IMG/VR virus record: IMGVR_UViG_3300033143_000957
Span: 1 to 23,769 of that record
Reading direction: 5' to 3' (one strand)
Origin: a virus
DNA length: 23,769 nucleotides
This document shows, piece after piece, positions 4,862-23,347 of this stretch. Each line of letters opens with the position of its first letter. Within the stretch, counting starts at the first letter, position 1. The notes under the pieces are model-generated. The model ran no database searches and was not told the DNA's origin. It saw only the letters and a program-made list of their open reading frames with translations. Position numbers and translations under genes: made by a program.

Positions 4862-5283
4862 TGTTTTGCACCTAATCTTAATTTGTTCATCATTTTATCA
4901 CTATTTTGCGGAATATCTAAGAAACCCAAGAATCGGGCAAAATCCGCAACGCTGTCGTGCTCTCTTGGAATATCTACTAACAGCATGTTACCTATGCCAA
5001 AGCCGTAATCTATGGCCTTGCTTACCGCCTCTGTTGCGTTCCCGTCCCTGTGCTCTGGCAAAACGTATGGGTGAAACTGTACGCCGCCGTAAACTTGCTC
5101 GAACATAGCGCAACCAATTATCAAGCTGTCTTTCGCAATCATCACATACTCGTGCTCATGCCCCATAGGTAGCAAGTTGCGGTCTGGATTGTTTACACGC
5201 TTTGAAAGTAACGGCCAAATCTCAGGATGGCACAAAACTATAGCTAGTTCGTCTTTGCTGCGGGTTGGGTAAACTTCAATCAT
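4849..5283 (-). CDS. GNAT-like protein at the P22 gp14 position
   Basis: 144 aa. ATG start overlaps the stop of the upstream gene by 4 nt (ATGA). The sequence reads like a compact GNAT-type acetyltransferase fold: an N-terminal helix with a HPEIW motif (about 19-23), a strand run YVMIAKDSLIIGCAMFEQV, a strand ending HPYVLPEHRDGNATEAVSKA that resembles the acetyl-CoA binding turn (R/Q-x-x-G-x-A) followed by a helix, and a late strand LLVDIPREH plus FARFLGFLDI. Proteins of this kind sit between head-completion and ejection genes in P22-like phages, where gp14 is required for assembly of infectious heads. Position strongly supports the gp14 analogy. Whether it retains acetyltransferase activity cannot be told from sequence. 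Confidence 0.62.
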   Translation of the reverse strand: MIEVYPTRSKDELAIVLCHPEIWPLLSKRVNNPDRNLLPMGHEHEYVMIAKDSLIIGCAMFEQVYGGVQFHPYVLPEHRDGNATEAVSKAIDYGFGIGNMLLVDIPREHDSVADFARFLGFLDIPQNSDKMMNKLRLGAKQWAA

Positions 5284-5723
5284 ACTGTTGCCGGTATCAG
5301 TGAGGTATTAAGTTTAATACGCCGCAAGTCTAGCTCTTGCTCTGGCGTAAGCCCTGCATTGCTTAATACAGATCGGTTAGACACAATCTGACGTATAAAC
5401 GAGTTAAAACCTGTAGCTTGCTGAAAAATATCTTGATTAGAGTCTCGAGGAAACAAATTTCCATTGATAACAACTTGCCCATCTGCTTCTGGCGCACGTA
5501 TTCGCCAGCCTAAGTCGTTACGCAAAAAGTAATAAGGCTCAATCTCTTGACCGCCGCCAATAGGGTCGCCGCCCGTTGTTTCAAACGCAGGTAGAAACTT
5601 TGTATTATCGCCAAGCCGTACCCACCGCTTCCACGCTGAGTAGAGGTCAATCTCCGAGCTATAATCCCCCAAGCTCGGTAACTGTATGATCAAATTTGGC
5701 CCGTCAAAAATAGCTTCTGGCAT
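5280..5723 (-). CDS. Virion structural protein of a widespread phage tail-module family
   Basis: 147 aa from the ATG at 5723, which overlaps the upstream stop in a TGATG coupling. An in-frame GTG three bases upstream is a less likely start. Characteristic pattern: DYSSEIDLYSAWKRWVRLGD (about 20-39), LPAFETTGGDPIGGG, YYFLRNDLGWRIRAPEAD, and VVINGNLFPRD. I recognise this W-K-x-W-V / PAF / GGDP / GWRI-P / GNL signature from small structural proteins at the end of tail or fibre modules in many phages. Their exact role is not established to my knowledge. It is translationally coupled on both sides, so it is probably made in step with the fibre protein before it and the gp14-like protein after it. 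Confidence 0.6.
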   Translation of the reverse strand: MPEAIFDGPNLIIQLPSLGDYSSEIDLYSAWKRWVRLGDNTKFLPAFETTGGDPIGGGQEIEPYYFLRNDLGWRIRAPEADGQVVINGNLFPRDSNQDIFQQATGFNSFIRQIVSNRSVLSNAGLTPEQELDLRRIKLNTSLIPATV

Positions 5724-7894
5724 CACGGATTCTCATAATTTCTGTCAAAAAATTGCTGAACAGGTATTGAGCGAGTTGCGCTTGTGTCTATATTGTCTAA
5801 TTTTTGGTAAATATAGTCTAGGTTATGGATAACAATATCAACAGCAGGCACACCGAAAAGTTCAAAGCTTTCGCTTGTCCCGCTATTCTCAACACCGCCA
5901 ACCTCGTTAATTGTTCCGGCCTCATACAGTCTTATTTCTGTGTTTGGTTCCAAGCCTAGCAGCGTAATCGTTGCAGGGTTTGTTATGTTTACTGTGCCGC
6001 TTTGTGGAGAATATACTTTCTCGATGGTCAGGTTTGTGCCGTTAAGGTTAGTCCAGTTTAACGGTTCTGTGCCTCTGTACTCAAGGTGAATACTAGACAA
6101 GGCGTTAAACGTAAAACCGCTAAGAGATAAGCTTAACGGTGTGCCTGCATCATTGATGCGAATTGTTAGCGGATCGTTTACACCTATAACCCCAGCCAAA
6201 GCGTCAAGTTGCGTCTGCATCTGCGCTTCTGTGCCTGATATGTTATAGGTAGGTAAAGCCCCGCGCCTGAATAAGTCCTTAACTAAATCTTCGCTTGTCT
6301 CTTCTGAGTACGTAACCCACTGACTAAAATAAGTGTCCTCTTGGTTTCTAAAAAGCACGTCTGTACCTCCAACCTCCAAGTTTCCGCCGGGGCCGCCTAA
6401 ACTAATATCGCCGCTGTGAGCATCTAAATCTGTAGATAAAAGCGGATTGCCAGAAGTTGACTGTTGCTTTTCACCGTCAAGAAACAAAACAAACTCTTTT
6501 GTAGGCTCTGTATAGCTGAACTTAAATAAAATATGATAGTTTCTGTTAGGCTCTAAAGACACATCACTAAAAGCCTGCACATTATCGTCACTTGTGTCGG
6601 CCTGTTGCGCTATAAGTGTGTTATTAATACCTAAGAAAAAAGCCAAGTTGTTTACGCCGCCTCCCTCCTCATAAAGACAGCTAAAACCTGTTTGGATACC
6701 GCCCAGCCGTATCCACCCGCCCATAAGCCGATTAGTTGTTATTGTTGTGTTCATATTCCCTGAGTTTGGGCATTCCCTGCGCCCGTCTTGCACTCGCCAA
6801 GACTGCGGCGCATCTTCACATATTTGCAAGGCTGCAAATCCGTTTGTGCCGACTGTTACGGCAGTAAAAGGGTTGGCCCCTACAGCGTCATCGTAATTCC
6901 CGCTTAACGGCCACCAGTGATCAGGGTTAGATGAGGCTATAACTATATCGTAGCTGGGCAGACCAAAAATTAACGTAACTGATATGCGATTTCCATCGCT
7001 ATCAGTGACAAACAGGAACAAAAGCCCGTCAGGAAAAACAGAAAGCCCCGTTTCATCATACTCTATAAAAGTATCTGACCAAGCGACTACAGTTTGCTCC
7101 ACTAAAGTAGCGGTCGAGTAATCTGCGCTATCCCCTATCTCTACCTTACCCGAACCCTGAACAGGCTCAAAACCAAACCCGTCAATAGGAATGCTTGTGT
7201 CATTTATTTTTATTTCTGTTTGCGTGGAGTTTATGCCTATTTCGGGCGGTGCGCCAAGCCTTAGCGCAAAGGCTAAAGTGGTGTTTTGAGAGTTCCCCCC
7301 GCCATAGGTGTAAGTGTCTGGGCCTAGCAAGCCTGTTGCTGCTGTCTGCTGTGTAGCAAAAGCGCCTGCCGCCGACCCTGATCCTGTTCCTGCTGGGCCG
7401 TTCTGGTTGTCGCTAATTGTTGTCCAGCCCGCCCCTGACCACGCGGGGCTTACAGGGTTGCCGCTGTTACCTGACTCTAGCCCCAAAAAAGCAACGCACA
7501 TTTGGTCTGATATGTCTCGCGTTATCTGCGGTACTTGTGAGCTAGAGACGCCTGTAGTGCTTACAAAAGAGTTGAAGCTTTGGAACGGGTCAATATTATC
7601 TACTTCGCGGAACAAAGCAAGGCAGCACCATGCCCGCTCGTTCCCGTTCATTGTAACTGTATAGTTTGCAGGCTCTACGCCTACAGCCTTCCACCAAAGC
7701 GAATCATTGGCAGACCCAGAAGAAGTGCCAGCATATTGCTGAGTAAAACCGCTTACCGAGGGGGCCGCGCCGCCATCTTTGGCAACAAACAGTATGAGGA
7801 CGTCGCCCGAAACCGACCCTGCCGGAAGCGCAATAGTTGCGTTTGGCGCGTTGTCAGAGTTTGCTGTTGTGTAGCTTACTAAGCTAGTCGCCAT
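5723..7894 (-). CDS. Large fibre/appendage protein with LamG-like domain and shared C-terminal module
   Basis: 723 aa, ATG with AGGA 6 nt upstream, overlapping the preceding gene by 11 bp. Visible layout: residues about 1-212, a beta-rich domain resembling phage jelly-roll modules (ALPAGSVSGDVLILFVA; AWCCLALFREVD; TLAFALRLG); about 215-315, an Ig/IPT-like domain (INDTSIPIDGFGFEPVQGSG); about 325-545, a concanavalin/LamG-like domain (DHWWPLSGNY; RLMGGWIRLGG; FVLFLDGEKQQS); about 560-723, a module nearly repeated in the next upstream gene and ending FDRNYENP. These folds usually bind carbohydrate or other surface ligands, so a role in adsorption or surface decoration is inferred. No catalytic residues or signal peptide recognised. 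Exact attachment in the virion is unknown. Confidence 0.68.
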   Translation of the reverse strand: MATSLVSYTTANSDNAPNATIALPAGSVSGDVLILFVAKDGGAAPSVSGFTQQYAGTSSGSANDSLWWKAVGVEPANYTVTMNGNERAWCCLALFREVDNIDPFQSFNSFVSTTGVSSSQVPQITRDISDQMCVAFLGLESGNSGNPVSPAWSGAGWTTISDNQNGPAGTGSGSAAGAFATQQTAATGLLGPDTYTYGGGNSQNTTLAFALRLGAPPEIGINSTQTEIKINDTSIPIDGFGFEPVQGSGKVEIGDSADYSTATLVEQTVVAWSDTFIEYDETGLSVFPDGLLFLFVTDSDGNRISVTLIFGLPSYDIVIASSNPDHWWPLSGNYDDAVGANPFTAVTVGTNGFAALQICEDAPQSWRVQDGRRECPNSGNMNTTITTNRLMGGWIRLGGIQTGFSCLYEEGGGVNNLAFFLGINNTLIAQQADTSDDNVQAFSDVSLEPNRNYHILFKFSYTEPTKEFVLFLDGEKQQSTSGNPLLSTDLDAHSGDISLGGPGGNLEVGGTDVLFRNQEDTYFSQWVTYSEETSEDLVKDLFRRGALPTYNISGTEAQMQTQLDALAGVIGVNDPLTIRINDAGTPLSLSLSGFTFNALSSIHLEYRGTEPLNWTNLNGTNLTIEKVYSPQSGTVNITNPATITLLGLEPNTEIRLYEAGTINEVGGVENSGTSESFELFGVPAVDIVIHNLDYIYQKLDNIDTSATRSIPVQQFFDRNYENP

Positions 7895-9095
7895 CGTAAT
7901 TCCTGTCGAATTGTTGGCTAACGGGCAGGGTTACATCACCGCTCGTCATATCAATGCCGTTTACACGTATATAAACATAATCTTCTTTGAGTATAACAAC
8001 ATCAACAAAATTAGCTTGCACTGCCGCAGAAAAGCTTGCTCCACTAGACTCTACACCGCCAAGCTCGTTAATCGTTCCAGACTCGTAAACTCTCACCTCT
8101 GTGTCAGGTATTAAAGGCTCTGCCGTTATCGTAGCAGGTGTTATTAAGTTAACTGTGCCGCCGTTTGGCGTTGATACAATCGAAGCGTTAGAGCCGTTAC
8201 TGTTAATATAGGTAAGCACCCCTGCACCCATCCATTGAATATGTATTGAGGCTAGAGGGTCGTGCGTTATGTTGTCAGCTATGAGCGTCAGATCGCCGCC
8301 GTTGTCAGCTATGCGAATGTTTAGCGGCTCGTCTGGCCTTACTGTGTTTGCTAGTGCGTCAAGCTCTGCCTGATTGGTCACGGTCACGCTAGGCAAAGCG
8401 CCTTTCTCAAAAAGCTCTGTTCTTATCTGCGCGTCAGTCAAGGCCGAAGCTGAGGCATCAAAGAAACTAGCCCAAAAATTATATTGCCCATTGGTAGGTG
8501 CGTTTAGTAACACTGTTGCGTTGCCTGCCTCGGTTGCTCCGCTAGGGTCTGCAAACTGCGCTGCCGTTCTAGCTGGAATATTTGCAACACCTGTTTGCGC
8601 GCTTGTCGGCACAGTTATAGATTGCTTAACACCGTCGATGAATAGCGCGAACTCACCGCCGCCAAGGAAGCGGCTAAACGCATGGTATGTGCGGTTAGGC
8701 TTTAATACATTATTAGAGAAAGCCTGCAAAACCGTCGTGCCTGACACAATATCAAGCATTAGGCGATTGCCAGCCCACATTATAATACTGTACTGGTTTC
8801 CTGTTGTGCCTTCGCGATATATAGATTTTGGCGGTAACTGTATGCTGTTTACACGAAGCCACCCGCCAACTGCTTTATTGGTTGCCGCCCCGTCAATGTC
8901 TGCTTGCGTAGTTAAGGTAACTCTGTCACCCGTCCCGTCAGACTGAACGCTATTTGCTACGCCCTCGCACAAAGCAGCAGACGTAACAAGCCCTGCGTTT
9001 GTCCCATCTGCTGCGCCAACTGAGTCAGTGTAAACGCCATCAAAAGTCCAAACATGCTGCGGGGCTAGTACTGTAACATCATCTATGTAAGCCAT
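7884..9095 (-). CDS. LamG-like appendage protein, paralogue of the downstream 723-aa protein
   Basis: 403 aa, ATG start 3 nt after the previous stop. Residues about 10-235 form a LamG/concanavalin-like domain: HVWTFDGVYTDSVG at the start, AVGGWLRVN, NRTYHAFSRF and FALFIDGVKQS. Residues about 240-403 closely parallel the end of the 723-aa protein: LNIRIADNGG versus LTIRINDAGT, PLASIHIQWMG versus ALSSIHLEYRG, GTVNLITPATIT versus GTVNITNPATIT, TEVRVYESGTINELGGVESS versus TEIRLYEAGTINEVGGVENS, and the ending FDRNYDGD versus FDRNYENP. The two genes are tandem duplicates of at least the C-terminal module and LamG part. It is probably a virion surface or fibre component with a carbohydrate-binding role; that role is inferred from the fold only. 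Confidence 0.66.
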   Translation of the reverse strand: MAYIDDVTVLAPQHVWTFDGVYTDSVGAADGTNAGLVTSAALCEGVANSVQSDGTGDRVTLTTQADIDGAATNKAVGGWLRVNSIQLPPKSIYREGTTGNQYSIIMWAGNRLMLDIVSGTTVLQAFSNNVLKPNRTYHAFSRFLGGGEFALFIDGVKQSITVPTSAQTGVANIPARTAAQFADPSGATEAGNATVLLNAPTNGQYNFWASFFDASASALTDAQIRTELFEKGALPSVTVTNQAELDALANTVRPDEPLNIRIADNGGDLTLIADNITHDPLASIHIQWMGAGVLTYINSNGSNASIVSTPNGGTVNLITPATITAEPLIPDTEVRVYESGTINELGGVESSGASFSAAVQANFVDVVILKEDYVYIRVNGIDMTSGDVTLPVSQQFDRNYDGD

Positions 9096-9098
9096 TTA

Positions 9099-10451
9099 TT
9101 AAGGATTGCTGTAGTTCCGCTCTAGTGCTGATACGAGCGCAAGTGTTTGACCGCTAGCCCGCAATATCAAGCCCTCGTTTTGCACATATTGGGCATCTTC
9201 CTCACCTATCGCCACCGCTATAATTGGCGCATCGGTTCCTGCTGTTCTGCCGCCCTGCGTGTTACCGTCATAGTCAAACGTAAACGCAAGTGAAGCATTG
9301 CCGCCGACGTTGCCAGAAATAGGATTACCGTCGTTATCTTCCACAATTATTGCGCCCGCTGTGCCAAAAGTATCGGCAAAGAACACTGCAAAAACAGCGT
9401 CAGGGTCGGCTTGTAAGTTGCTATTAAAGTTGATTTGCCCACTTGCAACAAACGGGAATTGCAGCTCTGCGCCTGTGTTGTCAGCAAAGACAATCCTGTT
9501 TGTGTCGTTGGCGTTAAAGTTGTCGATGTAAACACCGCCACCGCCACCGTCAGGATTGTTTATAACCTGAGTTTTTAGCGTATCGCCTTCAAATATTAAC
9601 AACTGATCTAGCAAAGAGCCTATAATGTCTGGCCCCGCGTCGGGGTCAATGTCAACATTTTGCCTTAGCTGGTACTGCACAAACTCATAAATTTGCTCTG
9701 CTGTCCCGTCGTTACCGTCAATGATTACGCCGAAATCATAACTTGTGCCGCCAATATCGCGCTGCTGTGGGCTTGGGAAAAGTCTAATGCTCATGCCCGT
9801 ATATGGCGCATCATTCTGAATCTGCGAATCAGTAGCGGTTATTTTTAAATCGTCTGACTCATTCAGAGGAAAACGATACGTAATGTAGGTTATCCCGCTT
9901 ACGCCTATATCTGTCGTAGTAGACAAGCCGTATGTTTTGCCTTGGGTGCGTATAAACAACGCAAGCGTTTCGCTTCGCTTATCAAAGTTGCCGTTAGCTA
10001 CATCACCAAACGTCTGTATGCCTTGGTTAACAGGCCCGCTAAAGTCGAAATCTGTCTTACTTACGTCAGAGTCAAAAGCATAGTAGGCTGTGTCTGCTGC
10101 GTCGATATTACCAAGCGATACAATGCCCGTATACTCGCGTTTAATATCGCCTGCCGCTGTAATCTCTCGCCAGCCTGCGGTTCTTAAAAGCGTTCGCGTC
10201 TGCTCATTGCTTGGCTTCCAATCTTCTATAAACTCGAACTGTTCTGGCGTGATCGAGATGGCAGGGAAGTCATATGGAATTAAAAGCGGGTCTGTGCGCC
10301 ATTCTTCCTTAAAAAAGGAGTAAAGCGCCTGCCCTGTTACGCCATCATCTGACAGATTGCCAGCAATATTAAGCGTGAACTCCTTCAAGCTTGTATCTAT
10401 CGTAACCTCGACGCCTTGGTTTAGGTCATCTGGATCATCTATAATTGCCAT
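9099..10451 (-). CDS. Putative virion structural / fibre protein ending in RNY-type C-terminus
   Basis: 450 aa, ATG with AAGGGG 6 nt upstream. I do not recognise the N-terminal domain family with certainty. It starts IDDPDDLNQGVEVTIDTSLK and contains acidic, aromatic-rich strands (FFKEEWRTDPLLIPYDFPAI, EFIEDWKPS, REYTGIVSLG, TYITYRFPLNESDD). The middle is beta-rich with a glycine run (NNPDGGGGGVYIDNFNAND). The C-terminus (APIIAVAIGEEDAQYVQ... ALERNYSNP) matches in spacing and final motif the ends of the next two gene products, so it shares their C-terminal element. No signal peptide, coiled coil or catalytic motif was seen. Its position between the gp10-like and gp14-like genes, where P22 has only the tail needle, argues for an appendage or tail-hub role. 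Confidence 0.58.
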   Translation of the reverse strand: MAIIDDPDDLNQGVEVTIDTSLKEFTLNIAGNLSDDGVTGQALYSFFKEEWRTDPLLIPYDFPAISITPEQFEFIEDWKPSNEQTRTLLRTAGWREITAAGDIKREYTGIVSLGNIDAADTAYYAFDSDVSKTDFDFSGPVNQGIQTFGDVANGNFDKRSETLALFIRTQGKTYGLSTTTDIGVSGITYITYRFPLNESDDLKITATDSQIQNDAPYTGMSIRLFPSPQQRDIGGTSYDFGVIIDGNDGTAEQIYEFVQYQLRQNVDIDPDAGPDIIGSLLDQLLIFEGDTLKTQVINNPDGGGGGVYIDNFNANDTNRIVFADNTGAELQFPFVASGQINFNSNLQADPDAVFAVFFADTFGTAGAIIVEDNDGNPISGNVGGNASLAFTFDYDGNTQGGRTAGTDAPIIAVAIGEEDAQYVQNEGLILRASGQTLALVSALERNYSNP

Positions 10452-12759: not shown

Positions 12760-14077
12760 CATCTACCAGTATATCTTTGTTGCCTATGTAAGTTATGCGC
12801 CCGCTTGATTGATCTATTAAAAAGCGGCTTTCTACAGCCTGTGTAAACACGCCAGACATTAGCGCAAATACGCCATTACTGACGGGCGTAGCAAGCGTGT
12901 TATCTGTCAACGTAGCGAGCGCAATGTTTTGGCTTTCTGGCACGACATTACTAACGCTGAACTCCCAACGCAAATCGCTAGGCAGTATGTTGCCTGAGCT
13001 TGTATAGTCGTTAATAATATTAATGTTTCTAAACGTGCCAGTCCCTGTCGGGGCCACGTTGCCGCTGTTTGGTAACCCGTCAAGCACTTGGTTTGAGGCG
13101 TTGTTGCTAACGACTGTGACGTTCTCAATGTTTATAACGTCCGTCACGCTGCCGTTAAGATCAAACATTGTCCCGTCGAAGTTGCCGACAAAAACGCTGT
13201 CAATGTTCATTACCGACAACTCGCCTTGTATTTCTAGCCCGTCACCTAATGAATTTTCTAGGCGTAGCAGCCGAACTAAAAATGTCTGATAGTTGTTTAC
13301 ACGCCCCATGCTTGCGCAGTTTGCTATGCTGACCTCGCTTAACGCAAACACGCCCGTTTTAGCTGTTGGCGAGTCGAAATCAAATATCTGAGCGTTTGGT
13401 GCATTTATAAACATATTGTTTAGGCTGATGCTTGAGCCTGTGTCACTACAGAATAGGGTGTCGCTTGTGCTTGATATGATGCCGCCGATCAATACGCTTT
13501 GTGCGCTCATTACAGTGTTATCGCCTGATCGAAACTTTAGCGAGCCTATGTCTATGGTGTCGCCTAATTCATAATCGGTATCGCCTGCAAGCTGTATTTC
13601 ACCACCCACAGGGGCAGGGAAGTCGTTAACATCATTGACCAGCTTGGTTTTGGTTGGCGTAGGGATGATGTTGCCTGAAATAGTAATTGTGCCGCCTGCT
13701 TGCGTCACTACTATGCCACCATCACCCTCAATAGCGCGGGCGACCAAAGGCACCGCCGTATCGTCTACAAATATCTTAGCGCCGCCCTCGCTGGTGTTCT
13801 CAATAGCTGTGCTAAGCTGAATGTTATTAGTTGGCCCGACGCTTAGGCTAAGGCCACCCGTTGCCTCGATAGCTCGAATGTTGTACTGAGCACCAGCCTG
13901 ATCCAGAACAGGTACTCCGTTCCCCTGCGTCCGAATATCCGCAAGGCCGAACTGCTGGGCAAAGTCGCTGACTGAAATCGTAACATTCTGGCCTCCTTCA
14001 ACGATACACACCGAAGCTGTGCCGCTAATTGATTGAACCTTGTTAAATTCTGACCATTTCTTGCCGTAATTTCTCAT
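12692..14077 (-). CDS. Beta-helix-like virion/fibre protein (frame-broken near its 3' end)
   Basis: 461 aa as read, but the last about 19 residues (from TMPRWQAHRSALLFM) look unlike the rest and arise from a frame break. The restored protein would be about 504 aa, ending at 12564. The start ATG overlaps the gp4-like stop by 3 nt (ATGA). The N-terminus VQSISGTASVCIVEGGQNVT resembles the attachment domain of phage structural proteins. Two AIE-GDGGI/ATGGL repeats follow: IRAIEATGGLSLSVGPTNNI and ARAIEGDGGIVVTQAGGTI. Residues about 170-370 show short repeated beta-strand turns (SLKFRSGD, SISLNNMFIN, FALSEVSIANC, SVMNIDSVFVGN, INIENVTVVSNN) consistent with a right-handed parallel beta-helix as in tailspikes. 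No catalytic site is assignable. It sits between gp4-like and gp10-like genes, which is unusual for P22 order. Confidence 0.65.
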   Translation of the reverse strand: MRNYGKKWSEFNKVQSISGTASVCIVEGGQNVTISVSDFAQQFGLADIRTQGNGVPVLDQAGAQYNIRAIEATGGLSLSVGPTNNIQLSTAIENTSEGGAKIFVDDTAVPLVARAIEGDGGIVVTQAGGTITISGNIIPTPTKTKLVNDVNDFPAPVGGEIQLAGDTDYELGDTIDIGSLKFRSGDNTVMSAQSVLIGGIISSTSDTLFCSDTGSSISLNNMFINAPNAQIFDFDSPTAKTGVFALSEVSIANCASMGRVNNYQTFLVRLLRLENSLGDGLEIQGELSVMNIDSVFVGNFDGTMFDLNGSVTDVINIENVTVVSNNASNQVLDGLPNSGNVAPTGTGTFRNINIINDYTSSGNILPSDLRWEFSVSNVVPESQNIALATLTDNTLATPVSNGVFALMSGVFTQAVESRFLIDQSSGRITYIGNKDILVDAGATMPRWQAHRSALLFMTGAT

Positions 14078-14397
14078 TGATCGCCGCTCTCTTGCACAAT
14101 TACGCCTTGTGTCTCAGGCAATATGTCGTCAGTCTCTTCATAGTAGAAATTGTTACTCAAGAAACCGTCTTTGGTGTTGACGTTGCCGCTGCCTCTAGGC
14201 AGCGTCGAAGGATAAGGGGCGGGGCCAACATCAATAGTGATATTTTGTATTGCCTCCATGCCTTGCTTAGCTGTAGCCATAAGCGCGGGGCTTACGTTTG
14301 CGTCATACTGCGCTGCAAGCTTTATGGCAAGCATGGCAATTACGCCATCAATAGCAGCAGGAGGAACGGTTATCGGGTCGTACTTCGGTATAGCCAA
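14074..14397 (-). CDS. C-terminal part of gp4-like head-closure protein (separate frame)
   Basis: About 107 aa from a TTG, with no good ribosome site. The sequence AIPKYDPITVPPAAIDGVIAM then LAIKLAAQYDANVSPALMAT, IDVGPAPYPSTLPRGSGN matches the C-terminal two thirds of P22 gp4-type tail accessory factors (compare gp4: LACRIAPDYALEATAK and APYPSRMPTGSGN). P22 gp4 is 166 aa and binds the portal first during head closure. Here the N-terminal third lies in another frame just upstream (14348-14548). Joining the two by one base gives about 157 aa. This piece alone is unlikely to be translated from its own start, so the gene is either frameshifted, recoded, or wrongly sequenced. Confidence 0.75.
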   Translation of the reverse strand: MAIPKYDPITVPPAAIDGVIAMLAIKLAAQYDANVSPALMATAKQGMEAIQNITIDVGPAPYPSTLPRGSGNVNTKDGFLSNNFYYEETDDILPETQGVIVQESGDQ

Positions 14398-14548
14398 GCG
14401 CGTAGCCTCTGGCCTCCCATTGGTTCATCATGCGATTAAGGTAGCGTATTGCAGTTTGAGCCTCGTCGGGCTGAATAGGCTGCTCAACGCTTTGCACCAG
14501 TATTTCTACTAGCGCATCTTTTATAACCGACTCTGCTGTTTCAGACAT
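14348..14548 (-). CDS. N-terminal part of gp4-like head-closure protein (frame-broken)
   Basis: 66 aa, ATG with GAGGA 7 nt upstream. Residues 1-53 (VIKDALVEILVQSVEQPIQP, then AIRYLNRMMNQWEARGYALG) match the N-terminal helices of P22 gp4 (AVDDLEAMMAEWYQDGI type). The last residues RPDNRSSCCY are an out-of-frame tail that ends at TGA. The family sequence continues in the +1 frame (PITVPPAAIDGV) from the overlapping ORF. The change lies in ACC GAA GTA CGA CCC GAT; removing one C of CCC (plus strand GGG, 14375-14377) yields GYTEVRPITVPP. Function: first protein to assemble beneath the portal after packaging. The stop may abolish function unless ribosomes shift frame. Confidence 0.75.
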   Translation of the reverse strand: MSETAESVIKDALVEILVQSVEQPIQPDEAQTAIRYLNRMMNQWEARGYALGYTEVRPDNRSSCCY

Positions 14549-22699: not shown

Positions 22700-23347
22700 C
22701 TAAACTATCGGCATATTTTGACCGCCCAGCGTCACGCTAGTGGCGTTCTCAATGTTTGTTCCAGTTATGACAACATTCTGCTGTCCTGCTCTTACCTCGT
22801 TGTCCCCGTCTATGTCGTCAATGCTTGGGCCTGTAGCACTAGCAAGCTCTAAAGTAAACCCTGTTAAATACCTTGTAGTAGATGGACTCGAAGGCGAGTT
22901 AGTAACATCAATAAATAATGAGTCACTAGTAATAGTGCCAGTAAATTCTAACAAAGGCGCAGGTGGCCATGCTGTAGAGTTGTATTGTAAAGTTGTACCA
23001 TCCACCGTTACGTCATTGTCTCTAACTGAGTTGCTAAAGTGCGCTGTTTTTAATGTGTAAGTTTGCCCTATGTACGCACTTAGGTTATATATCTCGTACT
23101 CTAAGTCGCTGTTACTGCGAAACGAAACACCGTCCCAAACATCGTCAGGCCAATCATATATATCACCGCTACCTCGGCTTTCATTAATATTGACAGAGCC
23201 ACCGACAATAGCACGTAAAGATATTCCCGTAGTGCTACCCGTATCGTCAAGCATATCTGCTATAAGTGTTGTGTTGGTCGCTCCGTCTAATGTGCTTGAG
23301 TTCCAGCTCGGTACAGGGTCACCAAAGTTCATTTTTAATAAAGTCAT
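22700..23347 (-). CDS. Virion protein with N-terminal jelly-roll and shortened IPT/TIG-like end
   Basis: 215 aa. ATG 1 nt after the previous stop, with a GGGG site. Residues about 1-165 are a beta-rich module seen in phage structural proteins (MNFGDPVPSWNSSTL; WPDDVWDGVSFRSNSD; YNLSAYIGQTYTLKTAHFSN; YLTGFTLELA). Residues about 172-215 look like the first half of an IPT/TIG (Ig-like) domain: IDDIDGDNEVRAGQQNVVIT then NIENATSVTLGGQNMPIV, where the chain stops. Such domains normally run 75-90 residues, so this one is cut to about half. Other frames downstream do not restore it. It is probably an appendage component. Confidence 0.6.
   Translation of the reverse strand: MTLLKMNFGDPVPSWNSSTLDGATNTTLIADMLDDTGSTTGISLRAIVGGSVNINESRGSGDIYDWPDDVWDGVSFRSNSDLEYEIYNLSAYIGQTYTLKTAHFSNSVRDNDVTVDGTTLQYNSTAWPPAPLLEFTGTITSDSLFIDVTNSPSSPSTTRYLTGFTLELASATGPSIDDIDGDNEVRAGQQNVVITGTNIENATSVTLGGQNMPIV

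Follow-up and report, generated by a model that had tools for sequence, protein, structure and literature searches.

A gene cassette related to Syn5 gp53–gp55 whose constant and variable proteins share a co-varying C-terminal tag

Three adjacent genes of a virus code for proteins of quite different lengths that finish on nearly the same residues, which raises the question of whether the shared end is a docking element carrying exchangeable heads and, if so, what such proteins might build. The stretch of DNA analysed here (the window) is a whole virus record of 23,769 bases, in which Pfam and PHROG identify terminase, portal, scaffold, coat and a gp10-like head-closure protein, in that order (the gp10-like protein by Pfam Phage_stabilise, E 3.6e-18, and PHROG head closure Hc3, E 3e-94; the remaining head genes by PHROG). 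We read this gene order and the gp10 as P22-like. The three genes, P0001, P0002 and P0003, are placed after gp10 and a fibre-like protein, P0005 (Table 1). Among the 121 window ORFs of at least 40 aa, only these three have a [DE]R[NQAV][YF] end, confirming the RNY-type endings that an earlier, sequence-only reading had picked out. That reading left out both a fourth gene, the gp55-like P0004, and the link to cyanophage Syn5. P0004 can start at a GTG at 5726 (148 aa) or at an ATG at 5723 (147 aa) that overlaps the P0003 stop.

Table 1. Features of the window discussed in the text (aa, amino acids; -, minus strand).
Feature	Position	Strand	Description or basis
Source record IMGVR_UViG_3300033143_000957	1-23,769		virus DNA
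P0001	9099-10451	-	450 aa; putative constant subunit, Syn5 gp53-like; ends ERNYSNP
P0001 C-terminal beta-sandwich domain, about residues 332-450	9102-9458	-	predicted model
P0001 end tag ERNYSNP	9102-9122	-	sequence and co-variation
P0002	7884-9095	-	403 aa; putative variable subunit, first paralogue; ends DRNYDGD
P0002 lectin-like (LamG/concanavalin) domain, residues 10-231	8403-9068	-	predicted model
P0002 C-terminal module, residues 285-403	7887-8243	-	profile match E 8.2e-42; profile started from P0002 and P0003
P0002 end tag DRNYDGD	7887-7907	-	
P0003	5723-7894	-	723 aa; putative variable subunit, second paralogue; ends DRNYENP
P0003 extra N-terminal part, residues 1-323	6926-7894	-	
P0003 C-terminal module, residues 604-723	5726-6085	-	profile match E 6.1e-40; profile started from P0002 and P0003
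P0003 end tag DRNYENP	5726-5746	-	
P0004	5280-5723	-	putative Syn5 gp55-like partner, last cassette gene; relatives in 114/138 sources
P0005	10462-11133	-	223 aa, fibre-like, just before cassette; PHROG tail-protein matches; possible accessory, not counted as member

P0002 and P0003 are more alike than their ends suggest: residues 12-401 of P0002 align with residues 324-721 of P0003 (pairwise, 35% identity, E 4e-62), a homology of some 400 residues where about 160 had been proposed. The homology takes up the whole length of P0002 and leaves no separate head there; the extra part of P0003 amounts to about 323 residues. First- and second-gene copies from nine loci with two module genes (the window, L013, L035, L042, L044, L048, L066, Maribacter phage Panino and L117) formed two clades in a tree (support 1.000). 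Judged from these sequences, the pair goes back to an old duplication that several phages have retained, suggesting that P0002 and P0003 occupy two distinct positions. As a query, P0003 found no relative in viral contigs.

A profile of the C-terminal module, seeded from the P0002 and P0003 ends and run over the 88 first loci, converged on 84 proteins, those two included. The addition of MAG loci brought the total to 100 module ORFs, and 98 of 101 domain matches finish at most four residues from the C-terminus; homologues keep the ends, contrary to one of the two outcomes by which the sequence-only reading could have been refuted. The N-terminal parts of module proteins range from 228 to 1260 aa and fall into 14 clusters (99 parts), whereas the 100 modules fall into only two, of 99 and 1. 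This disparity, together with the terminal position, indicates that a single conserved end with many heads is a property of the family and not of the window. The idea of different N-terminal domains on one common end therefore stands across the family and fails for P0002 and P0003, which are paralogues over 400 residues. Pfam returned no match for nine of ten N-terminal representatives of module proteins, neither Pfam nor PHROGs assigned P0001, P0002 or P0003 to a fibre family, and no fibre family in either collection was common to more than 5 of 72 module rows.

We asked whether P0001 belongs with the other two. Its pairwise BLAST similarity lies at its end only (E 0.007 to P0002, 1.3 to P0003), and a profile of the P0001 end alone detected no significant module protein (best E 1.6). 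Profile-profile comparison alone found the match, with the P0001-end and module-end families staying in register as far as their final residues (E 2.1e-6, probability 89%); this supports the proposal that P0001 shares the end, though pairwise similarity is weak. In a control with 41 windows of 60 residues slid along P0001, a good match to the module end was confined to the terminal window, at E 7e-5 across the final 19 columns; windows that overlap it came next, reaching 0.0076, and those free of overlap got no better than 0.011. By profile, then, P0001 stands for a conserved family of its own that resembles P0002 and P0003 at its end.

Predicted structures of P0001 and P0002, two of the three proteins, agree with this match. 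AlphaFold2 modelled P0001 with a pLDDT of 95.1 (83 for the last ten residues, the tag being modelled as ordered) and P0002 with 85.9 (mostly 93-98 in its C-terminal half), and the last four strands correspond in order and register (P0001 387-393, 408-415, 423-429, 435-439; P0002 355-359, 363-369, 376-382, 388-391), a correspondence read through the profile alignment of the two models and not by coordinate superposition. Alignment A4 comprises 55 of the 60 rows of A1, leaving aside annotated database records and L079, and the module alignment A5 comprises 61 of the 72 rows of A2, leaving aside annotated database records, the second L044 copy, L076, L077, L079 and L083. The P0001 end resembles transthyretin/CnaB-like (prealbumin-like) sandwiches with Z scores of 5.4-8.2, which are not distinctive and lie within the range of common arrangements. 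Foldseek gave no P0001 match in the PDB at E 0.001 or better, and sequence searches of solved structures gave nothing convincing (one match each, E 0.017-0.66); the top viral structure match of P0001 was Syn5 gp54 (E 1.9e-9), with 10% identity and an rmsd of 13.5 in an alignment that spans several domains. In its model, P0002 has a jelly roll of the LamG/concanavalin type at residues 10-231 (183 residues aligned with a domain of AbnA at Z 20.6 and rmsd 2.5), and Pfam Laminin_G_3 matched at E 0.00085, below its cut-off. As modelled, this N-terminal domain is lectin-like and probably sugar-binding.

Two smaller observations concern P0001. The family profile of its residues 16-79 aligns with residues 5-75 of P0004 (E 1.9e-5, probability 77.5%), so the P0001 and P0004 families may share a domain. 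In L020 and L038 (7330-7527 in each), the P0001-type gene is directly followed by an ORF of 65 aa, most of which repeats the last 40 or so residues of that gene's product, tag included; by its sequence, this ORF is a stand-alone end.

Over the family, the motif closes 86 of 88 closed P0001-family ORFs and 76 of 80 closed module ORFs; among the remaining closed ORFs in these loci, most of which had been fetched with P0001, 7 of 2972 have it. The tag is confined to gp53 and gp54 in the whole Syn5 genome (2 of 356 ORFs of at least 40 aa) and to the three cassette proteins in Panino (415 ORFs). A cause at the DNA level, namely the start signal of the next gene, was considered and discarded, since each of the two families uses all six Arg codons and there is variation in the Tyr and N/Q codons too. 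As codon usage varies at the tag, the constraint acts on the protein.

The last 4-8 residues of the P0001-type and module proteins co-vary within each phage, a result that is new here. Matching pairs (P0001 type first) include ELTYQNPI/DLTYKNP (L096), DPSYIQ/DVSYLA (L128), DRGYLA/DRGYLE (L064), DRAYVNP/DRNYSNP (L073) and ERNYANPI/DRNYNNPI (L139); mismatched ones are ERNYST/DRNYDNP (L003), ERNYQNP/DRVYSPG (L033) and ERNYSNP/DRNYIQ (L138), besides the DGD end of P0002. The test began with 110 sources holding both proteins, of which 93 were below 95% identity in the P0001 body and 91 had a readable motif in both. Over these 91 loci we counted 411 end matches, against 293.5 when ends were shuffled globally and 369.3 when they were shuffled within 55% clusters (z 6.7, P 5e-5), a coarse control for relatedness in that clusters were still 32 and 25 loci wide. 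The end of a protein's own partner was a better match than that of the nearest relative in 42 cases, a worse one in 21 and an equal one in 28 (P 0.0013), and the four seven-residue blocks directly upstream of the tag showed no co-variation (P 0.98, 0.78, 0.19, 0.20). An early tally of end classes, in which 73 of 78 pairs were alike, ignored relatedness and is superseded by the clustered test. Co-variation of the very ends within a phage fits the proposed reusable docking element, but P0002 and P0003 are not two different heads placed on it. The odd DGD end of P0002 is coded in the overlap with the P0003 start codon (window 7884-7907), where only DGD falls; L001 and L019 have NGD at this site.

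What might such proteins build? The P0001 protein is a full-length homologue of Syn5 gp53 (residues 1-450, 44.4% identity, E 6e-92). The end of P0003 matches that of gp54 (55% over 87 aa, E 3e-19), and P0002 matches gp54 from residue 290 onward, at the gp54 end only (E 5e-9). Gene order (gp53-gp54-gp55), the C-terminal module of gp54 and the end tag are likewise common to Syn5 and the window. Syn5 gp53 and gp54 reportedly make a horn, for which we know of no established role. The two phages differ in backbone, which we read as P22-like in the window and which is T7-like in Syn5, and in the gp54-type genes, of which the window has two paralogues and Syn5 one, with N-terminal parts unlike those of gp54. 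Used as a query, gp54 found only Syn5 itself. One paper describes Syn5 as having a horn opposite its tail (PMC10575957). In Panino, CDS0100-0097 comprise all four genes in the same order, the paralogue pair included, with the three larger proteins 36.6-43.1% identical to those of the window (P0002 to CDS0099, 36.6%, E 9e-62; P0003 1-722 to CDS0098, 36.8%, E 8e-112). It differs in having a 77-kb genome with chaperonins and many tRNA genes, and its cassette proteins are annotated as hypothetical. A literature search found no paper on such relatives of the Syn5 horn proteins, most subscription papers being outside its coverage.

Across 138 sources (137 loci and the window, most loci having been fetched with P0001 and duplicate contigs included, such as L109, which equals Syn5, L116, the L021 contig, and L123, the L060 contig), we found the P0001 type in 134, module proteins in 116, the P0004 type in 114 and all three in 106. 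The complete cassettes run module-P0001-P0004 in 54 cases and P0001-module-P0004 in 50, with the P0004 type last in 104 of the 106 simple orders and all gaps no longer than 300 nt in 78 of 106; some incomplete cassettes stop at a contig end on the maps. Since most loci had been fetched with P0001, two further queries were used: P0004 brought in 13 loci, 12 of them with P0001, and a module taken from a different clade brought in 17, of which 14 have P0001 and the other three lack all of the families. P0005-like ORFs occur in 10 of 106 loci, all with the P0001 type. In L004, whose coat protein is 67% identical to that of the window phage, the cassette sits between portal and scaffold and not after gp10, and this different site in a relative makes it seem that the cassette moves as a unit. 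A further occurrence, L107 (CP066686.1, 1015658-1033226), falls within a contig of 1.08 Mb that is labelled as a Candidatus Woesebacteria chromosome; the locus may be a prophage of a candidate-phyla bacterium.

We favour, at slightly better than an even chance, the reading that the cassette builds a virion appendage of the Syn5-horn type, with one C-terminal docking tag common to its constant and its swappable subunits. The genes at 5280-10451 form a single structural cassette, with P0001 as the constant subunit, P0002 and P0003 as variable ones and P0004 as a small partner. P0001 and the P0002/P0003 modules would plug into equivalent or shared sites by their last 4-8 residues, [D/E]-R-N-Y-x-N-P, with the N-terminal parts projecting outward and the lectin-like one of P0002 probably binding sugar. 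For the window phage, we infer a location on the head. Modular tail fibres also combine a constant end with swappable domains, and the likeness extends to the present family; the differences are that P0001, P0002 and P0003 match no known fibre-end family in Pfam or PHROGs and that the end here is also found on the constant subunit and co-varies with it. The cassette could nonetheless encode receptor-binding tail structures, either side fibres or spikes, whose C-termini would anchor them and whose lectin-like heads would bind the host surface; we consider this unlikely. The modelled P0002 domain would suit such a role, as would the position of the window cassette behind gp10 and a fibre-like protein, and in several loci the cassette is immediately preceded by genes with matches to collagen-like tail-fibre families. 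However, in Syn5 the annotated tail fibre is gp46 and not gp53-gp54; antibodies to gp53 and gp54 reportedly did not block infection; and in L004 the cassette lies among portal, scaffold and coat genes. Several portal families and several major-head-protein families of PHROG occur around the cassette, as do collagen-like fibres, and the immediate neighbours, head genes and collagen-like tail-fibre families alike, give no clear pointer to head or tail, a mixture that leaves the tail-fibre reading some probability.

Instead of docking, the tag might serve as a signal for assembly that a chaperone or the gp55-like protein reads, perhaps to be cut off afterwards. Short co-varying C-terminal tags would suit a reader protein, and the P0004 type is nearby and nearly always last in the cassette, but the P0001 end is modelled as ordered with its domain, and we judge this improbable. 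Lower still do we rate plain common ancestry, in which the ends would be alike through one duplicated C-terminal domain and have no shared partner: P0002 and P0003 are indeed paralogues, and the module and the P0001 end may be distantly related, yet ancestry alone does not explain why, within a phage, the last residues co-vary and the ones just before them do not. An alternative of another kind, to which the ordered P0001 tag would be congenial, is that both ends merely pack inside their own domains.

Extending the appendage reading, we put forward more tentatively, as possible but doubtful, that the 4-8 end residues act as an address code: the constant hub and the interchangeable arms of a phage would carry the same plug, read by one socket, with plug and socket drifting together, and the cassette would be a portable kit allowing T7-like, P22-like and large phages to mount a horn-type appendage and exchange its heads. 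The Syn5 horn has so far looked like a curiosity of one cyanophage; if the cassette is portable among many unrelated phages, horn-type appendages would be a general virion part. The co-varying tag would then be a handle that marks appendage proteins and predicts one partner for all of them, and the cassette points to a natural exchange of lectin-like heads on an unchanged anchor.

Elsewhere in the window, a 215-aa protein (22700-23347, minus strand) shows weak IPT/TIG-like similarity over residues 174-214, at an E value of 0.0023 that falls short of the curated cut-off. A gp4-like gene (14074-14548, minus strand) is split into two overlapping ORFs of 66 and 107 aa, and the window copy looks frameshifted, since a single ORF corresponds to both of them in L074, a near-identical contig (98-99%), and also in L004.
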